Positions 1-34,704 of a DNA stretch of 64,000 nt are shown here, one piece after another (the stretch's first letter is position 1; each line of letters begins with the position of its first letter). A model generated the notes under the pieces. The model worked only from the letters and a program-made list of their open reading frames with translations, did not search any database and was not told where the DNA came from. A program made the position numbers and the translations under genes. This DNA is from Teredinibacter franksiae (GTDB taxonomy: Bacteria; Pseudomonadota; Gammaproteobacteria; Pseudomonadales; Cellvibrionaceae), in contig NZ_JACJUV010000001.1 of the NCBI RefSeq assembly GCF_014218805.1, forward strand, positions 3,484,501-3,548,500. The letters run 5' to 3'.

Positions 1-1146
1 CAGGTCGACCGTTACGCTTGCAGAACCTAGGTCCAAGTCGCTACTAAGAAATCCTGTGTGGTCGGCACCGTCTACATAACCATACAATACATAGGAGGCC
101 TCCCAGTTTTGGTACTCTGCACTTGCGCTGGCACCATTGGAGGTAAAGGTGTAAGTACCGTCTCGATCCATTACCAGCGTGCCGTTATAGGCGTTGATGG
201 TTATCTCATCGTCAACGAAGCTGCTATAAACGGTGCTATCGTATTCAACGGACACAATCTCACCGGGTGCCGACACAATGGTGTCTGCAATAACGCTAAT
301 GCCGCCAGTACCGGTGATAACGTTGCCGGTGATGATTTCACCATGCCAGTAATTGGCGCTGTCATCGTTAGCCGTTATTGTTCCCAGCAAGCCCTGCCAG
401 CTGGGGGCAAAAATAGCGGCTGTTTCAATAGTTCCGGTGGTATTTTCTAGGTGCCAATCGCCGCCCAGCTCTGTGTTGCCGGTTGGATCATTGGAAGCGG
501 CAACATCTGCTTGGGTGAAGGTGGCAATGGTTTGGACCAATAGCTGGCCGTTGTTATTTGCAGCTAGGTCGCATCCGTAAAGTAGGATATCGGCGCTTTC
601 GTCTAGTGCATTGTTCCAAGCTTGAAGAGGCTCTTGGTATTGCAGTACGGTTTGGCTGTCGAGGCGGGTAGAACCAATATTCAGTTGGCTTTCGTTACCG
701 TGGCTGAGTACATGTACGCTTTTCACGCCAGCATATTGTGCGAGGATCAGCGACATCTGCTCTATGCCATCGCTGTCTTGCTCTAGAGTGAATACTTTGT
801 AGTCGTTATCGCCATATGAGGCGGTAAGGTCGTCTATTAGTGAGTCGGACTTCTCAACGGAGGGGTCGGTAAAAATAATGTGGCCGGGGTAATGCTCACG
901 CTCGTCGAGTTCTGTGCTCTCTGTAATTAGCGTATCTTCTGCTTTGCTGTCAGCCTCAATGTCGACAGCTTCTGGTAGTTCTAGAACGGAGAGGAGGTCC
1001 ACCTCGGCGGCTTCGCTATTGAGGTCGCTGGCGGCCAGTAGGTCGTCGTCAAGCAACACCATATCGGCAGTCGCGGAGAACATTAGCCGGTCTTCCAGCG
1101 GTTCCGCGATTACTCGTCTTCGATGTCTATTTTTGTGCTCGCGCAT
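1..1146 (-). CDS. Large surface/adhesin protein, LEPR-like motif plus DUF4347 domain (N-terminal part only)
   Basis: An open frame of 382 codons starts at ATG 1146 and runs off the left edge, so only the N-terminus is visible. An in-frame TGA lies just upstream, which fixes ATG 1146 as the first possible start; no good Shine-Dalgarno is seen. The first residues are Arg-rich and followed by EPLEDRLMFSA (residues 15-25), a variant of the LEPR-XLL N-terminal motif of very large repetitive surface proteins; no classical signal peptide is seen. Residues about 85-250 match DUF4347, with VHVLSHG, ADILLYGCDLAA and GGDWHLE. After about residue 270 comes repetitive beta-rich sequence with Asp/Asn/Gly/Thr, like VCBS or cadherin-type repeats. 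Known of the family: giant calcium-dependent adhesins, usually exported by type I-like systems. The three adaptor genes just upstream are probably its export partners (inference). Confidence 0.82.
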   Translation of the reverse strand, partial: MREHKNRHRRRVIAEPLEDRLMFSATADMVLLDDDLLAASDLNSEAAEVDLLSVLELPEAVDIEADSKAEDTLITESTELDEREHYPGHIIFTDPSVEKSDSLIDDLTASYGDNDYKVFTLEQDSDGIEQMSLILAQYAGVKSVHVLSHGNESQLNIGSTRLDSQTVLQYQEPLQAWNNALDESADILLYGCDLAANNNGQLLVQTIATFTQADVAASNDPTGNTELGGDWHLENTTGTIETAAIFAPSWQGLLGTITANDDSANYWHGEIITGNVITGTGGISVIADTIVSAPGEIVSVEYDSTVYSSFVDDEITINAYNGTLVMDRDGTYTFTSNGASASAEYQNWEASYVLYGYVDGADHTGFLSSDLDLGSASVTVDL

Positions 1147-1459
1147 AATTGGTGGTCATTTTCATAGGTAAAACGTGAAAATACTGCTCGCCGGACGCAG
1201 AACCGATATAGAAAACATCTCCTTTGTTGGATATCTGTTCTGGCTTCCCACTCCCGAATAGGGCGCGTAATCTCCCTTACACCTGTGCGAAAAACAATCT
1301 AACATGTCATTGTTGCGCACAAATCCACATAACACTATGTTTTTATAGGTAATATAGCGAATTGTTATTTTTAATTGCTTTTTTAGTTGCTCACACAAAG
1401 TACTGTTTAAACGTTTGAACTTCCGCATGCGCTGATGCCATGGCTTAACCTGAGATTTC
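1147..1459. other. Intergenic region upstream of the adhesin gene
   Basis: About 313 bases separate the adaptor gene from the adhesin start. An 88-codon minus-strand frame at 1162-1428 shows no family resemblance and was not accepted as a gene. The region is AT-rich and could hold the adhesin promoter, but no clear -35/-10 pair was identified. Confidence 0.4.
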
Positions 1460-2299
1460 TTAGCTGCCTAAAAGCGCCGATTGGTTGCGAACGTCGGGAA
1501 AGGATACCTTGCACTTGAGGCCGCTCGGCAGGTCGAGTAAAGGGTTGGGGATGCTAAGGCTCACGCCAAAGGTATTACTGGGGGCGTCTATCACTTTATC
1601 TACTTGATCCACTTTGGCATTGTAAAAGCTGCGGGCAATGTTTAGCTCCGGGGTCACCACCGCATTCATGCCAAGCTTGATTTTGCCGTAGAAGTGAGCA
1701 GGCACGAACACCTCAACCTTTAGTGGGTTGAGTTGTGCAATTTGCAGGATAGGCTCAAAGTAAATGTGTTCTCCAGGTTCCTTGTAGCGTTCTACAACCA
1801 CACCTTCAATTGGGCTGGTAATGGTTTTTTGCGAGAGGTCTGCCAAAGCACGCTTATATTCCATTTCGGCTTGCCGTTTTCTATCCTTTGCTTGCTGTAG
1901 TTGCTGGGCGGCGAGTTCATATTCGGTTTTAACCTTATCCAGCTCGGCGTAGGAGGCCGCTTTTTTATCGTAAAGATCTTGTACGCGTTTAAGGTTTCTT
2001 TGCGCAAATTTGTGCGTAAGCTTCTGTGCATCAACATCACTCGTAAGCTCCGTCTGTAAGCGGCGCAGATCGACAGTAGCTGATTCCAGAGATGCCTCTA
2101 GTCTTGCTAGTACATCGCCCTCGGAAACACTATCGTTTTTAGATACCAGTACTTCGCTGACCACGCCTTCCGCTGAACTGCTGACATCCACCCGTACATG
2201 GGGTTCGATTCGGCAATTGAATGCCACTGGTTCGTTAGGCATTGCAGAAGGTGTCTGCAGTACTAGCGCCAAGAGGACGGCTGTGTGAAGTTTTTTCAT
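1460..2299 (-). CDS. HlyD-family periplasmic adaptor (membrane fusion protein)
   Basis: About 279 residues. The ATG at 2299 is preferred over an upstream TTG at 2326 because it gives a direct signal peptide (MKKLHTAVLLALVLQ, Ala-rich c-region) and follows a short AGAG element. After the signal comes a biotinyl-lipoyl-like half (VDVSSSAEGVVSEVLVSKND), a long alpha-hairpin rich in Gln/Lys/Glu (about residues 70-150), the second lipoyl half (ITSPIEGVVVERYKEPGEHI) and a beta-barrel domain. This is the usual order of RND/type I adaptors, although the protein is short and lacks a long C-terminal domain. It lies about 200 bases downstream of the M50/HlyD gene, on the same strand, and upstream of the surface-protein gene. 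It probably bridges inner-membrane components to an outer-membrane channel; no TolC-like gene or transporter is visible nearby. Confidence 0.85.
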   Translation of the reverse strand: MKKLHTAVLLALVLQTPSAMPNEPVAFNCRIEPHVRVDVSSSAEGVVSEVLVSKNDSVSEGDVLARLEASLESATVDLRRLQTELTSDVDAQKLTHKFAQRNLKRVQDLYDKKAASYAELDKVKTEYELAAQQLQQAKDRKRQAEMEYKRALADLSQKTITSPIEGVVVERYKEPGEHIYFEPILQIAQLNPLKVEVFVPAHFYGKIKLGMNAVVTPELNIARSFYNAKVDQVDKVIDAPSNTFGVSLSIPNPLLDLPSGLKCKVSFPDVRNQSALLGS

Positions 2300-2497
2300 A
2301 TGCTCTATTTTGACTTGTGAAATCAAATACTGTTCAAATAACTTTAGCTTAGTACGCGATATCAGTGCCGATTAGCGAAAATTAATCTTTCTATCGACAA
2401 GGTGTTGTTAAGAGATTCCCTAGAGTACTCTACTTTTTGGCGCGAATTCAAACGTACTGGTGAATTTGTGTTGTGTATCTAGAATCGTAATGGGCGA

Positions 2498-4657
2498 TTA
2501 TTGTGCTTCACTGCGAAGAATTGAAACAAGCGTCTGTTGGAGTGTACGCGTTATTTTTTCGGCTAGTGTTTCTGGTTTGTGAGCAAACTGTACGAAGACT
2601 TTCTCGCCAAAATGTTGCAGGTTACCCACAGCGGGTACATCGATATCCAATAAAAACACCTGTTCGTTGGTGTGCAGCTGGTCTGTATCGGAACTTTTTA
2701 CAACAATACGACCTCCAGCTGAAGTGCCCAATGCGGCGCTCGGCAATGCGTAGGTGCCAGCAGGAACTTGAGTGGTAATGGTGCCTGCGAGTTTTGTTCC
2801 GGGATTGCTACTCAACCGTACCCATACGTTGCGCGTGTCTGCGCGCACGTATTCCACTTCTTCTTGCTTCAATACAGCACGAATTTTGGGTCGTTGTTTA
2901 CTTAGCACTAGGCCAATGATATCGCCTTCACGAATAAAGCTTCCCAGTAATTGATGCTGCCCAATCATTCTGAAAACACCGTCGCTAGGACTGCGAACCA
3001 TTAGGTTGTTAACCCGCTCCTGTAGATACGCAATCTCTAGCTTAATCGATTTAATGTCCTGTTCGAATAACTGAATTTGCGAGCGATCCAGCGACCAGGC
3101 TTGCTCGTAGCGGGACTGGTACTCTTTTAATGTAGCCTGCTGTAGTAAAAGCTCGGCTGTGGTGTCGATGTTTGACAGGTGCAATAAAGTGTCGCCTGCT
3201 TGAACGTTTTCTCCATCTGCTATATTGGCATACACAACCTCACCCGAACTCTCGGCGCGTATTCGCGCCTTCTCGGGTAGCCAGACAATTCCTTCTGCGG
3301 CAGTGTTGTGGGCCGTAGGGATAAAAAATATCGACGCAGAAACCAGTGCTACGCTAGCAAACGATAGTGTTAACGCCCGAGTTCTACCCTGTTGCAGTTC
3401 TTTACTAGACGCTAGATAGGCCGCGTATTTTAATAGTGGTAGTAACAGCTGAAAAATTAGTAGCCAAGCGGCTAAAAACAAACCAAAAGAAGGGAAGTGC
3501 TGGGCGACAACCAGTACGATAGTTGTGAGAACCACTAAACGATACAAAAAGGCGGCGACGCCGTATAGCGTAAGGCCCAGGCTTTCTTTTTTGGTGACGG
3601 CAATAGACTGTTGTTCGTGTAGTCCATAACCATAGCGTTTTATGAGATAGCGCAATTGTAATAGTGCGCGCGTTGCAAGGTTGGGTTGATCGGCTGCATC
3701 ACACAATATGTGGTAGCCATCAAAACGCATAAGTGGATTGCCGTTGAAAAATAGGGTGGATACACTACCGATTAAGACAATGTTGAAAAGAATATTACTG
3801 AGTAACCCTTCTTCAATATGTAGCCAAAAAATTAAGGCGATGGCGGCCAGTAGTAATTCAACTGCCATACCTGCGGCGCTGACCATGAGTCGTTGAGATT
3901 TGCTGGGGAAACCGGTTGCTGCCGTAGCATCGACATAAGGAAAAGGTGTCGCCAAAATAAAAACAATGCCGAATTCTGTAACATGCCCCCCCCATACGGT
4001 GGTGAATAAACCATGGCCGAGTTCGTGCAGCGCTTTAAGCAGTGGGTAGGTGAGCCACAGTAGTAATAAATTTTCGGGTGCGAGTATGCTGGTTAATTGG
4101 GTTGCTGATATTTGCGACCAGTTACTCGCTGCAAGTACGAGTGCGTAGATGATTGTTGCCAGCCACAGAATTCCGGCAAGAGGGGATGTTATCCACCTGA
4201 ATGCGGGGGCAATGGTTTCCAGGAAATTGCCAGGTTTCAGTAGCGGAATACGCCAGGCGTAGGGGCTTTTAATGATTTGATGCCAAAAACGCTGTTTACG
4301 CTTTTGGCTGCGGTCAAAGAGATGCGCAGTTTGTGGTGGAAAATCGCATATCAGTAAATCGGCAACGTAAAGATATTGGAGTAAATCGACGAGATCTTCC
4401 TGCGTTGGGATGTCGTCTAGTGTTTGGCGCAGGCTCGATTGCGAGGCGTTTTGTAGTATTTGTTCGAGCGTATTGCGCCCGTTCATGAAGCCGAGCAGTT
4501 GGTACGCTAGCCGATTAAAACGGTGAAATTTTCCGTTGGCGGTGTCTTCGAGTACGTACCAAGCTTCCTTTCCGTACTGTCGTGGCTGAATACGAACATG
4601 ATAAGGTAAAGACGGTTTTAATTTGTTCAGGCGTTGCCATAAAGAGGGACTGGACAT
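2498..4657 (-). CDS. Site-2 (M50) metalloprotease fused to a HlyD-like adaptor, with PqqD-like N-terminus
   Basis: 719 residues. Residues about 20-105 resemble a PqqD-like peptide-binding domain (YVLEDTANGKFHRFNRLAY). Then come membrane helices carrying the zinc motif HELGH (H211, E212, H215) and the second M50 signature NGNPLMRFDGYH (305-316), both intact. Further helices run to about residue 450, followed by a HlyD-type segment (ESSGEVVYANIADGENVQAG; VRSPSDGVFRMIGQHQLLG; beta barrel to the end). M50 enzymes cut proteins within or near the membrane, and PqqD-like domains bind leader peptides. Here both are joined to an export adaptor, which suggests recognition, processing and export of a substrate (inference). 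It starts 3 bases after the GAF-HlyD gene, so the two are probably co-transcribed. Confidence 0.85.
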   Translation of the reverse strand: MSSPSLWQRLNKLKPSLPYHVRIQPRQYGKEAWYVLEDTANGKFHRFNRLAYQLLGFMNGRNTLEQILQNASQSSLRQTLDDIPTQEDLVDLLQYLYVADLLICDFPPQTAHLFDRSQKRKQRFWHQIIKSPYAWRIPLLKPGNFLETIAPAFRWITSPLAGILWLATIIYALVLAASNWSQISATQLTSILAPENLLLLWLTYPLLKALHELGHGLFTTVWGGHVTEFGIVFILATPFPYVDATAATGFPSKSQRLMVSAAGMAVELLLAAIALIFWLHIEEGLLSNILFNIVLIGSVSTLFFNGNPLMRFDGYHILCDAADQPNLATRALLQLRYLIKRYGYGLHEQQSIAVTKKESLGLTLYGVAAFLYRLVVLTTIVLVVAQHFPSFGLFLAAWLLIFQLLLPLLKYAAYLASSKELQQGRTRALTLSFASVALVSASIFFIPTAHNTAAEGIVWLPEKARIRAESSGEVVYANIADGENVQAGDTLLHLSNIDTTAELLLQQATLKEYQSRYEQAWSLDRSQIQLFEQDIKSIKLEIAYLQERVNNLMVRSPSDGVFRMIGQHQLLGSFIREGDIIGLVLSKQRPKIRAVLKQEEVEYVRADTRNVWVRLSSNPGTKLAGTITTQVPAGTYALPSAALGTSAGGRIVVKSSDTDQLHTNEQVFLLDIDVPAVGNLQHFGEKVFVQFAHKPETLAEKITRTLQQTLVSILRSEAQ

Positions 4658-4660
4658 AGG

Positions 4661-6517
4661 CTAAAACCAAAAGGCCAGTCGCAACCAGTTCCATATGTCG
4701 TGGAACCAAATCCAACCGAGTGCGCGTCGTTCAATAAAGATTTTTGCCGACCCGGTCATTCCGGGGCGTAATTGTTGTGACAGTTCGGTTGAATTACTGC
4801 TGGGTTGTGTAGACGATTGTTCCACTCGTTTCTCGGATACAGAAAAATTAGCCTCTACTCGAAAAAAATTTCTGCCCTCGCTACCTTCGCTGAGTGGAGT
4901 CATTTGTTCTACTTCAATTTCAAACGGCTTTCCTGGTAGGCTTTTTAGTGTGAGCTTGCCTTGCTGCAGGGGTTGAATAAAACGGATATCTTTTTCGTCA
5001 ACATAGAGGGTAACCCTGTAGCTGTTGCTGTCGGCAATTTCAAACAGTACTTCGCCTTGCTCCAGAGGCGCACCGAGTGACTGACTGATGTCTTCCGAAA
5101 CTACAATACCGCTAATGGGTGACTTAAGCTGTATACGCTCCAGCTTTTGCTCAATAAGTCTTAGCTCGATACGGCTTTGTTCAACTTGTGCGTTGACAAT
5201 GGCAGCCTGTGCTCGATTGCCGTTCGCGAGCGCGTTGTCGTATTCAAGTCGAAATTGTTGTAGTTGGCTGGACAGTTTTCGGCGTTCCAAGTTGAGTTCT
5301 TCATCGCGCAGGCTCGCAAGCAGCTGACCTTCTTTTACCAGCTCTCCAGGGCGAGCGTAGATGTTCCCCAAAAAGCCTTCGTAGGGTGAAACCAGTAAAT
5401 GCCTATTGGTGCTTTCAACAGTGGCTTTATTGGAGATATTGAAATCGCTCGGTAGAAATAATGCGACTATAAATATCAGACTGCTTGCCAGCAACAGCCG
5501 CTCAACAGGGTGTTGGGCGCCAAAAATACGACTTATACCGTTGAGGAATCGTGTGCGAATAAACTGTGCGAGACTCAGGTGTGCCTTTTGTTTTATATGG
5601 AAAATGGTTGCGAGCGAGCGAGCGCTATTTTCGATGAATGCATGTATGTTTTCGTTTAGCGCTTGAGCTTTGGTGTGCTCTATGGTGATTGCGCCGGTGA
5701 TAGCGTTTTCTGTGCGTAGCAAAAAAGTATGGCAGGACTGGAGTTTGTGACTCTTAAGCAGGCGCTGGTGGTTCAGCCGAATAATGGAGGTGGCTGTTTG
5801 CTCTTCGGAGCGCTGTGGAAAGTTAATGGCTTGACGTTGCTCCCAAGACTCCTGCATTGCTCCCAAAATATTTTGCATGGCCAGTGTTCGTGGGTCGAAA
5901 TTCGCCGAGAAGGACACCGCAGCCAATTTAATTTTGTTTCCGCGTTTAAGACCAATACTTACGCGCTCCAGATCAAAGTGAGATGCCAGGAAGTTGGCGA
6001 TGGAAATAGCCGTTTCCTCTGGTGAGGGTTCTCGCAGGGCAATACTGAGCAGGTTCAGTGCCTGGCTGGGGTTGCTGCTGCTCTCGGGGGTATTGAGCGC
6101 AAGGTTTGGCGCGCTGTCGGTAAGTGCGCGAGCAATATAGGTATCGTATTCGAAAAGAATAAATTGCAGCCAGTTTAAACCCCAGTCGAGTAGTCGAATG
6201 ACGGCTTTCATGGTTGTGCTGTCGTGGCGATTTAAACGAACAACCAGCGTTCCCCAAAACTGATTTTTCACTTTTACCGGGTAGCCAAGAAAAACCTCAC
6301 CGTTGTGGGGTTTGGATATATGTAAGCGTTGTTGGCTGATAACTTTTTTAGCGGTATCAATAGCGTGGTTTTCGGTTTCGCAGGAGTCGGGCCATACGGC
6401 AAGCACGGTGTTATTGGTGTCTGATTCCTGCTGTGCCAGCAAGCCATAGTTGCAGTTGTGGATCATTTGGCACTGTAGTTGAAGCCAGTGTTTCAGGAGA
6501 GGGCTTAGGGCATGCAT
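4661..6517 (-). CDS. GAF-like domain plus HlyD-like membrane fusion protein
   Basis: 618 residues. The cytoplasmic N-terminal half (about 1-335) has two weak GAF-like stretches, the clearer at about 155-305 (ISIANFLASHFDLERVSIGL). One membrane helix follows at about 339-356 (LLLASSLIFIVALFLP). The periplasmic half has lipoyl-like segments (LLVSPYEGFLGNIYARPGEL and LKSPISGIVVSEDIS) flanking a coiled-coil hairpin, then a beta-barrel domain. The topology matches inner-membrane adaptors but with a possible sensory domain attached. It is the first gene of the adaptor set and sits 3 bases before the M50/HlyD gene. A ligand-gated role is only inferred from the GAF-like fold. Confidence 0.78.
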   Translation of the reverse strand: MHALSPLLKHWLQLQCQMIHNCNYGLLAQQESDTNNTVLAVWPDSCETENHAIDTAKKVISQQRLHISKPHNGEVFLGYPVKVKNQFWGTLVVRLNRHDSTTMKAVIRLLDWGLNWLQFILFEYDTYIARALTDSAPNLALNTPESSSNPSQALNLLSIALREPSPEETAISIANFLASHFDLERVSIGLKRGNKIKLAAVSFSANFDPRTLAMQNILGAMQESWEQRQAINFPQRSEEQTATSIIRLNHQRLLKSHKLQSCHTFLLRTENAITGAITIEHTKAQALNENIHAFIENSARSLATIFHIKQKAHLSLAQFIRTRFLNGISRIFGAQHPVERLLLASSLIFIVALFLPSDFNISNKATVESTNRHLLVSPYEGFLGNIYARPGELVKEGQLLASLRDEELNLERRKLSSQLQQFRLEYDNALANGNRAQAAIVNAQVEQSRIELRLIEQKLERIQLKSPISGIVVSEDISQSLGAPLEQGEVLFEIADSNSYRVTLYVDEKDIRFIQPLQQGKLTLKSLPGKPFEIEVEQMTPLSEGSEGRNFFRVEANFSVSEKRVEQSSTQPSSNSTELSQQLRPGMTGSAKIFIERRALGWIWFHDIWNWLRLAFWF

Positions 6518-6588: not shown

Positions 6589-7755
6589 TTAACTGGCGAT
6601 GGGTTCGGAACCCAAAACCGCTTCCATTACTTGGAGCTTTCCTTGCCGAACAATTTCAATTGAAACTTTGTCTCCAGGGCGAGACTCTCCAATTTCCTGC
6701 TGTCCCCAGCGGCCATCGCCCACCATCTGATTGTTGATGCGAGTAATAACATCACCAGGCCGAAGGCCCGCTTTGTCGGCTGGCCCACCGCTGTACACAT
6801 GGGTAATCAGAACGCCATTGGTGGAGCGGAGCTTGAAGGATTGCGCCAGCTGAGGCGACAAAGATTGGGCTTCGACTCCCAGCCAGCCTCTTACAACACG
6901 GCCGAATTCAACAATATCGTTTAGTGTTTGGATGGCGGTATCGGCGGGAATGGCGAAGCCAATGCCTCCGGCATATCCGTTCTGGTCGAGGTTAGCGGTG
7001 TTTATACCCAGCAGGTTGCCGTGGACGTCTATTAAGGCTCCGCCAGAATTTCCTGGGTTAATGGCTGCATCGGTCTGAATAAAATTTTCAAAGTCGGCAA
7101 TGTTAAAGCCGCGCCGTCGGGTTGCACTGACGATCCCTTGGGTAACGGTTTGCCCCATACCAAAAGCGTTACCTATAGCTAAAACAACGTCGCCCACCAT
7201 GGTGGTATCGGGTGAGCCAATTGGGATGGGGGTAAGGTTGTCGAGTTCTATTTTGAGAACCGCGAGGTCGCTTTTACTGTTTGCGCCTTTTAGCTCGGCT
7301 CTTGCTTCACGGCCATCAGACAGCGCAACCACAATTTCATCTACGCCTTTAATTACGTGGTTGTTGGTGAGTATATAGCCCTCTTTACTGACGATAACGC
7401 CAGATCCTCGCGCCGACTGCATACGTTTTTGCCGGGGGATGTCTGAGTTATTAAAGTAATGGCGGAACAAAGGGTCATCAAATAAAGGGTGGCGGCGAAT
7501 ATTCACCTGCTTAAGTGTGTAGATGTTAACAACTGCAGGAGCTGCTCGTGCAACCGCCCGAGCATAGGATACTGGCCCACCCCAACTCTCCCCTTCATAG
7601 GGGGAAAGGCCGCGAAGGGGAGCATTCCCTGCTGGTGCAACCATCATTGAGGCATTTTTTAGCTGGGGAAATGCTACCAAACCTACGAGTGCCACCAGTA
7701 GCCCAATGACAACCGGCCAGCGGGTATAAGTGATGATTTTGTAGATGGTATCCAT
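6589..7755 (-). CDS. degS: Membrane-anchored DegS/AlgW-type serine protease
   Basis: 388 residues: one N-terminal membrane anchor (about 13-30), a trypsin-like protease domain and one C-terminal PDZ domain (about 285-380). The catalytic triad is complete: H133 in LTNNHVIKG, D163 in KSDLAVLKIE, S237 in NPGNSGGALID. A single PDZ and a membrane anchor distinguish it from the two-PDZ, secreted DegP/DegQ. DegS/AlgW cleaves the anti-sigma factor RseA/MucA in the periplasm when misfolded outer-membrane proteins bind the PDZ, starting the sigma-E envelope stress response. Its position next to zapG and zapE is the common gammaproteobacterial order. The loop before the protease core (residues about 85-115) is Arg- and Phe-rich. 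Confidence 0.93.
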   Translation of the reverse strand: MDTIYKIITYTRWPVVIGLLVALVGLVAFPQLKNASMMVAPAGNAPLRGLSPYEGESWGGPVSYARAVARAAPAVVNIYTLKQVNIRRHPLFDDPLFRHYFNNSDIPRQKRMQSARGSGVIVSKEGYILTNNHVIKGVDEIVVALSDGREARAELKGANSKSDLAVLKIELDNLTPIPIGSPDTTMVGDVVLAIGNAFGMGQTVTQGIVSATRRRGFNIADFENFIQTDAAINPGNSGGALIDVHGNLLGINTANLDQNGYAGGIGFAIPADTAIQTLNDIVEFGRVVRGWLGVEAQSLSPQLAQSFKLRSTNGVLITHVYSGGPADKAGLRPGDVITRINNQMVGDGRWGQQEIGESRPGDKVSIEIVRQGKLQVMEAVLGSEPIAS

Positions 7756-33985: not shown

Positions 33986-34014
33986 TGTAGTGAGACAGCA
34001 GCGAGGATGAGCAC

Positions 34015-34704
34015 ATGTTTGAAGTTTTAGATCATACGGTTGGTTACGGGCAGAGTGAAGTTATTAGCAAGATGAATTTCGATATAAAGAAAAACGAAAT
34101 TGTCGCCATAGTGGGTCGCAATGGCATGGGAAAGACAACATTAATGAAATCGCTTATAGGCATGATTCCAAGTGTTTCGGGTGAGATTAAGCTTGGAGGG
34201 AAAAACTTGGAAGGCTTGAAAAGCTATGAACGGGTAGCCTCAGGAGTTGCTTTTGTTCCACAGGGGCGAATGATTTTTTCTACGATGACGGTCAGCGAAA
34301 ATATTAAAACCGGCCTTACAAGCGTAAAAGACAAAGATATTCCAGAGTATTTGTACGAATTATTTCCGGTTCTAAAAGAGATGAAGTTTCGTCGTGGCGG
34401 CAACTTGTCGGGCGGACAGCAGCAGCAGTTGGCCATTGCTAGGGCTCTAGCAAGTAAGCCAGATTTATTGCTTTTGGATGAGCCAACAGAAGGTATTCAG
34501 CCTTCAATTATTCACGATATGGCCAGAAACCTGAAACGTATTCGTGATGAAATTGGCTTGTCGATTATTGTTTCCGAACAGGTGCTTAGTTTTGCTTTGG
34601 ATATTGCTGATCGAATATTTGTAATTGAGAAAGGGGAAATTGTTCGTGAAGAAGACCGAGCTTCGGTCGACGAAAAAAAAATAGCGGCCTATTTGTCTGT
34701 GTAA
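34015..34704 (+). CDS. urtE: ABC transporter ATP-binding protein UrtE-like
   Basis: 229 residues. Walker A GRNGMGKTTLMKS, Q-loop PQGRMIF, signature LSGGQQQQLAIARAL, Walker B LLLLDEPTEG. LivF-like partner of UrtD; the GMGKTT form and NLSGGQQQQL are usual for UrtE. It ends about 60 bases before the amidase gene. Confidence 0.94.
   Translation: MFEVLDHTVGYGQSEVISKMNFDIKKNEIVAIVGRNGMGKTTLMKSLIGMIPSVSGEIKLGGKNLEGLKSYERVASGVAFVPQGRMIFSTMTVSENIKTGLTSVKDKDIPEYLYELFPVLKEMKFRRGGNLSGGQQQQLAIARALASKPDLLLLDEPTEGIQPSIIHDMARNLKRIRDEIGLSIIVSEQVLSFALDIADRIFVIEKGEIVREEDRASVDEKKIAAYLSV

Follow-up and report, generated by a model that had tools for sequence, protein, structure and literature searches.

The closest described counterpart of the genes considered here, a four-gene set at one end of a 64,000-nucleotide stretch of the Teredinibacter franksiae genome (the window; C1:3484501-3548500; the genome measures 5.4 Mb and has a completeness rating of 100 percent), is the type of locus reported by Kamneva, Poudel and Ward in 2015 (PMC4452313). 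The main text of that study groups secondary SecA_DEAD, Peptidase_M50, GAF-HlyD and HlyD genes and calls their role completely unknown. It proposes a SecA-type ATPase as a stand-in for the ATP-binding cassette (ABC) ATPase and suggests the M50 protein as a possible inner-membrane pore. The terms LEPR, PqqD, adhesin, giant, DUF4347 and cadherin do not occur in this main text, and the first 300,000 characters of a 2021 review (PMC8277102) do not cite the study. Among the literature matches listed, with preprints and most subscription papers outside the scope, no paper links LEPR proteins to M50/SecA loci.

The window locus shares with the 2015 locus the clustering of an M50-HlyD gene, an adjacent GAF-HlyD gene and a further HlyD gene without an ABC gene, but differs in that a secondary SecA is missing and the candidate substrate, a giant adhesin-like protein with a LEPR-like N-terminus, is encoded inside the cluster. 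Given the 2015 description, the machine itself is not new, and because the genome has no secondary SecA the window locus is filed as a SecA-less variant of that locus and not as a type I system. As far as the literature matches listed show, the new elements are the substrate class, the PqqD-like part of the M50 protein and the SecA-less variant with its substrate in the cluster. The four genes probably make up a single unit for export, in which a type-I-like secretion module without an ABC component is paired with the giant protein that it secretes. From gene co-occurrence, the partnership between the module and LEPR giants appears to be a dedicated one and is well supported.

Giant repeat adhesins of the LapA type are classic substrates of type I secretion, and the window locus resembles these systems in its adaptors, probable TolC, giant repeat protein and GGDEF neighbour. 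It differs in that no ABC gene is seen, RTX repeats are missing and the candidate address is N-terminal rather than C-terminal. The M50 proteases of peptide maturation (daptide NF041824 and YydH/LiaK NF058609) are homologous membrane proteases, whereas the window protein is fused to PqqD-like and HlyD parts. The LEPR-XLL domain (NCBIfam NF012209) is the same type of motif at the N-terminus of large proteins, with the window copy falling under its cut-off, and its model output names no export route. Tce1 of Pseudomonas aeruginosa (9qpe), a relative of the DUF4347 domain of the giant, is a cargo of the type VI secretion system and its peptidase activity is called putative in PMC13323088; the window DUF4347 instead belongs to a giant surface protein and is placed close to its N-terminal end.

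Association of LEPR giants with the module

The initial annotation, made from the letters of the window, had proposed a possible dedicated link between the LEPR-type N-terminus and the PqqD-M50-HlyD and GAF-HlyD genes. Its interpretation is partly supported: the link holds, in that the elements do not occur independently across genomes. Among 369 Gammaproteobacteria the M50 fusion was found in 31 of the 33 LEPR genomes (the 31 spread over 23 families) vs 25 of the 336 genomes without LEPR (p 2e-27; the co-occurrence p-values ignore relatedness). This count follows a strict rule chosen after seeing the class data (LEPR at least 17 bits without neighbours, in a frame of at least 500 amino acids (aa); M50 at E <= 1e-50), which excludes 8 of 64 M50 genomes with partial, distant or HlyD-only matches. 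A looser LEPR rule (E <= 0.05, no frame rule) gives 35/51 vs 21/318. Further samples agree. In 58 relatives, M50 (counted at E <= 1e-20, 19 genomes; 20 at 1e-10) is present in 7/7 LEPR genomes vs 12/51 others, with two genomes (G000, that of the window, and G055) belonging to both this and the 369-genome sample. In 239 Alphaproteobacteria, with the M50-bearing centre excluded, the figures are 4/5 vs 6/234, and the fifth LEPR is an internal chance match. Approached from the M50 side, 32 of 37 genomes reached via M50 loci hold LEPR above the cut-off, and in many cases the frame is 5,000-13,000 aa long; these genomes were obtained for 38 of 80 related loci that had been hand-picked, three of which (L150, L178, L182) were already known to include a LEPR gene. 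LEPR frames of the class sample reach 14112 aa. Of the eight genomes of the window's genus, three (G000, G006 and G007) have M50, GAF-HlyD and LEPR-type giants together; the other five show no M50, no GAF-HlyD and no NF012209 match better than E 1.

The giants with a DUF4347 domain divide in the same manner. Twenty of the 58 genomes have this domain, at 27 places in all, with 12 LEPR-type and 15 secretory-pathway (Sec)-type N-termini as assigned by reading the sequences. M50 lies within 20 kb of 11 of the 12 LEPR-type giants (0.6-14.1 kb), and the twelfth (G021) has M50 on another contig. By contrast, no Sec-type giant has M50 within 20 kb (0/15), although 4 of the 15 are in genomes with the module plus a separate LEPR giant. 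As the module is near the LEPR type only and never the Sec type, the same passenger domain has two alternative N-termini of which the module accompanies one, and the view that the LEPR end replaces a normal signal peptide on the same type of DUF4347 protein is supported.

The window's genome encodes a third DUF4347 giant (C3:128000-144462, about 3521 aa), which has a Sec-type N-terminus, a beta-barrel-like end by eye and no module. A sulfotransferase-like gene stands just upstream of the Sec-type DUF4347 giant in eight loci (L084, L085, L086, L088, L090, L092, L093 and L094; PF13469 was tested in L086 only), and L086 also has a gene with a phage tail collar domain close to it.

Composition of the window locus

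On the minus strand, the order within positions 1-6517 is GAF-HlyD, PqqD-M50-HlyD, a free HlyD/RND-type adaptor and the start of the giant gene. The three adaptor genes with their fusions, the HELGH motif and the LEPR-like giant had all been placed correctly by the initial annotation.

4661..6517, minus strand: GAF-HlyD fusion, 618 aa (GAF 23.9 bits, HlyD_D23 57.9 bits), with GAF at residues 166-303, one predicted membrane helix at 341-359 and an HlyD-type part at about 364-599
2498..4657, minus strand: fusion of a PqqD-like domain, an M50 protease and an HlyD adaptor, 719 aa
4373..4633, minus strand: PqqD-like domain, residues about 9-95 (profile positions, approximate)
4013..4027, minus strand: M50 zinc motif HELGH, residues 211-215
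3719..3721, minus strand: Asp313 of NGNPLMRFDGYH, presumed third zinc ligand
2561..3316, minus strand: periplasmic HlyD/MacA-like adaptor part, residues about 448-699
1460..2326, minus strand: free HlyD/RND-type adaptor, 288 aa from TTG (TIGR01730 122.5 bits)
1..1146, minus strand: 5' part of the giant adhesin-like gene, which leaves the window leftwards and ends at genome C1:3471850
1114-1146, minus strand: Arg/Lys/His-rich residues 1-11 ahead of the LEPR-like motif
1072..1104, minus strand: LEPR-like motif EPLEDRLMFSA, residues 15-25 (NF012209 below cut-off)
400..879, minus strand: DUF4347 domain (PF14252), residues 90-249, 165.8 bits vs a gathering score of 24.6; predicted cysteine peptidase
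691-693 and 562-564, minus strand: His152 and Cys195 of DUF4347, invariant in 42/42 long distinct sequences

The free adaptor has a likelier start at the ATG of 2297-2299, which gives a signal-peptide-like beginning by eye. On the M50-HlyD fusion, the daptide HExxH protease model (NF041824) has E 1.4e-38 and 133 bits vs a cut-off of 300, NF058609 is below its cut-off at E 1.4e-07, Pfam Peptidase_M50 reaches 23.4 bits (under its 27.2 cut-off) and HlyD_3 has E 3.3e-06. Pfam does not report a PqqD domain in the fusion; a profile of 42 sequences matches the solved PqqD 3g2b over positions 9-95 (E 0.0044). In sets of 22 and 42 sequences, with identities down to 17 percent, neither the HExxH motif nor the Asp of NPLxRFDGY varies, and both are placed in predicted membrane helices, as in M50 site-2 proteases.

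The giant is encoded by a frame of 4598 aa (C1:3471850-3485646) that lies mostly outside the window, starts with RRRVIAEPLEDRLMFSA and includes DUF4347 plus about 27-28 cadherin-like repeats. Its LEPR-like motif resembles that of relatives above the NF012209 cut-off, although the window giant itself (11.1 or 14.1 bits) and the paralogue giant of the same genome (14.4 bits) do not reach the required 17 bits. Among 45 distinct motif frames (L256 among them is doubtful), the consensus is E-x-L-E-P-R-[LVI]-L-[LF]-S-A-D and the stretch before it is mostly net-positive. The DUF4347 domain shares a His/Cys dyad in the same fold with Tce1/TcdB-type cysteine peptidases, with a clear fold match and a weak sequence match (E 0.031), and Pfam Peptidase_C80 gives only E 0.2 on the giant.

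The giants of the two gene sets in this genome both carry a C-terminal membrane helix, and neither has RTX GGxGxD repeats (0 in each), which are a mark of type I substrates. A conserved C-terminal membrane anchor, searched with a motif composed from a few known tails, is found in 9 of 3232 scanned frames; all nine are inside or at most 20 kb from a module, and eight have a LEPR motif in the same frame. One protein (P0121) that was picked up by its C-terminus alone has a LEPR end as well as the anchor. Tails of four LEPR giants (L260, L261, L262 and L263) have in common a short GW-type motif (e.g., GFSGWAVMK) ahead of a basic end, which is possibly another C-terminal signature. In three other LEPR giants (L258, L264 and L266; n=3) an HExGHxxGxxH metalloprotease-like motif is near the C-terminus.

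The initial annotation had called for the sequence left of the window to be read for transporters. In a motif scan that covered the window and the adjoining 40 kb on its left, no type I ABC/TolC pair was found beside the adhesin and no ABC transporter beside the adaptor genes; the scan was not a per-gene family search and did not extend to ABC exporters in the rest of the genome. Walker A and LSGGQ-type signatures coincide in only two frames of this region, an ABC ATPase at 33994-34704 and a frame about 35 kb to the left, which is presumably LptB-like. A TolC-family outer membrane factor, which type I secretion employs, is available in three frames of the genome, every one unlinked to the module.

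A PAS-GGDEF gene (C1:3470267-3471838) comes after the window giant. A PAS protein follows the adhesin or module elsewhere as well, with GGDEF in L067, as at the window side, and with a histidine kinase in L099. A DegS/HtrA-like protease gene (window 6589-7755) immediately precedes the module on its strand, and such a gene is by eye also a neighbour in L063 and L064. The genome has a second, paralogous and diverged gene set at C1:230000-249000 (L006) with identical gene order, composed of GAF-HlyD, an M50-HlyD 52 percent identical to that of the window, an adaptor, a 2876-aa giant and, by eye, a PAS-GGDEF-resembling frame. By eye, the 2876-aa giant is strongly repetitive; it has KRRIIAEPLESRLLFSA close to its start.

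The module in other genomes

Of the 58 relatives, 20 have a match to the M50 fusion (E <= 1e-10), and 16 of these same 20, but no others, have one to GAF-HlyD; in G050 the GAF-HlyD match is the HlyD part of the M50 gene itself. By profiles built for this analysis, a GAF-HlyD-type gene stands beside M50 in all 20 relatives' loci fetched, 10 of which had helped build the GAF profile. In a wider survey, the best 80 of 561 named records were taken from Gamma-, Alpha-, Beta- and Deltaproteobacteria, Nitrospiraceae, Phycisphaerae and others, and the GAF, SecA, adaptor and TolC profiles were again purpose-made (4-10 sequences each; none of the 80 named loci was used for the GAF profile). These loci include a GAF-HlyD type gene in 75, a SecA-like gene in 61, a free adaptor in 58 and a TolC-like gene in 5. 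The initial annotation saw no ABC ATPase or TolC-like gene on this side of the window locus; it did not include the TolC-like genes of these five related loci, the 2015 description with its SecA-type ATPase, the second gene set of the genome, the predicted cysteine peptidase in DUF4347 or the C-terminal anchor of the adhesin.

The SecA-like full frames of related loci are mostly about 660-750 aa, and the one protein tested (L067) has DEAD, preprotein cross-linking and P-loop domains. A second strong full-frame SecA match occurs in 4 of the 58 relatives (G018, G021, G034 and G039), each time adjoining M50, while G036 has two SecA pieces at the ends of other contigs. Among the named loci, those of Marinobacterium (L151) and Neptuniibacter (L146) come from strains with a SecA-like gene, and Cellvibrio mixtus (L134) has GAF-HlyD, M50, the adaptor and a LEPR giant. 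With a widened motif (a narrower one had given 12 loci), LEPR genes are found within 17 of the 80 loci, namely 10/19 without SecA and 7/61 with SecA. A LEPRxxxDGA/DAA variant with a weak NF012209 score is noted in L078, L080 and L257, the first two of which have TolC-like genes. That of L080 (6489-9287) encodes a TolC-family lipoprotein-like protein of 932 aa whose C-terminal extension matches cadherin/He_PIG repeats, and a LEPRVMLDGA giant is its neighbour.

Proposed route and competing explanations

In the route proposed for this export unit, the basic LEPR-type N-terminus would be recognized in the cytoplasm by the PqqD-like domain of M50-HlyD, a domain of the leader-peptide-binding type. 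A SecA-type ATPase would drive translocation; as the dedicated enzyme of 61/80 related loci is absent here, the housekeeping SecA or another source would have to serve. The M50-HlyD, GAF-HlyD and free adaptor proteins may make up a conduit through inner membrane and periplasm that leads to an unlinked TolC, with the LEPR leader cut at the membrane by the M50 site; the strict conservation of HExxH and Asp313 is what speaks for this putative proteolysis. The conserved C-terminal helix and charged tail could then stop transfer and hold the adhesin of the SecA-less subtype in the inner membrane. The N-terminally placed DUF4347 peptidase may process and release the exported chain, and regulation may be exerted by GAF and the adjacent PAS-GGDEF protein. 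Recognition, trimming, anchoring and release are predictions, as is a tentative cut site after the residues SA.

Three other explanations have to be set against the export unit. The LEPR end may be an atypical Sec signal by which SecYEG/SecA exports the giant, leaving the module a later part in processing, release or quality control. This is compatible with the presence of only one SecA of canonical length in the genome, with a weakly hydrophobic stretch in LEPR segments whose hydropathy overlaps that of signal peptides, and with a C-terminal anchor that fits a Sec stop-transfer. It is considered unlikely; against it, the Sec-type DUF4347 giants have no module nearby (0/15) and related modules bring their own SecA-like gene in 61/80 cases. 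A role of M50 as inner-membrane pore only, its protease site unused on the substrate, would follow the suggestion of Kamneva et al. in the main text of PMC4452313. The seven hydropathy peaks of M50-HlyD and the lack of an ABC gene in the motif scan on the window side agree with such a role, yet invariance of HExxH and Asp313 in the 22 and 42 sequences would be unexpected for a pure pore, and this role appears quite improbable. Very little probability is given to a standard type I system encoded elsewhere that exports the giant past a regulatory or efflux neighbour. The giant does match NF045619 and TIGR03660, as a classic giant repeat adhesin might, the genome has its three TolC-like frames, and the ABC scan covered only the window and 40 kb to its left; but both giants have a C-terminal membrane helix instead of RTX repeats, and LEPR is strongly linked to the module at the genome level.

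Several observations weigh against the export unit and its route. The window locus has no TolC gene, TolC-like genes being located only elsewhere in the genome, and a secondary SecA is absent from the genome, where the only SecA is in a 927-aa frame and a 761-aa frame gives a weak 27-bit match. Hydropathy separates LEPR N-termini from signal peptides only imperfectly (best 12-residue mean -0.86 to 2.05 vs 1.46 to 2.69), and the C-terminal anchor is not general, with 1/14 tails of LEPR giants elsewhere having it. The association is also incomplete: in the class sample, 25 of the 56 genomes with the module have no LEPR match by the strict rule (part of these may carry the LEPRxxxDGA variant), 6/10 Alphaproteobacteria with M50 (centre excluded) show no LEPR, and 54/61 SecA-containing loci have no LEPR gene in the locus. 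In the reverse direction there are two genuine exceptions: G269 (L214, C57) has LEPR in a 7373-aa frame and no M50 in the stretches read, and in G133, whose assembly shows 7 percent contamination, LEPR is on a 3-kb contig.

More tentatively, and with considerable doubt, the ABC-free module may represent a distinct secretion class of diderm bacteria. In this class a SecA-type motor, dedicated or borrowed, would replace the ABC transporter, a PqqD-like domain would recognize the N-terminal LEPR leader and the fused site-2 protease would cleave this leader, the HlyD parts would reside in inner-membrane proteins and TolC would serve outside. With leader and C-terminal anchor on one substrate, as in the SecA-less subtype, the adhesin would remain inserted across the envelope up to its release by a peptidase.

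The module is conserved and widespread and was published in 2015 with no substrate named in the main text (PMC4452313). Its link to LEPR offers a testable substrate class, the giant surface proteins, together with a candidate address signal and a candidate domain that recognizes it. If the proposal is true, an ABC-free secretion route for giant proteins would be directly testable, and a purpose would be suggested for the LEPR-XLL domain of NCBI.

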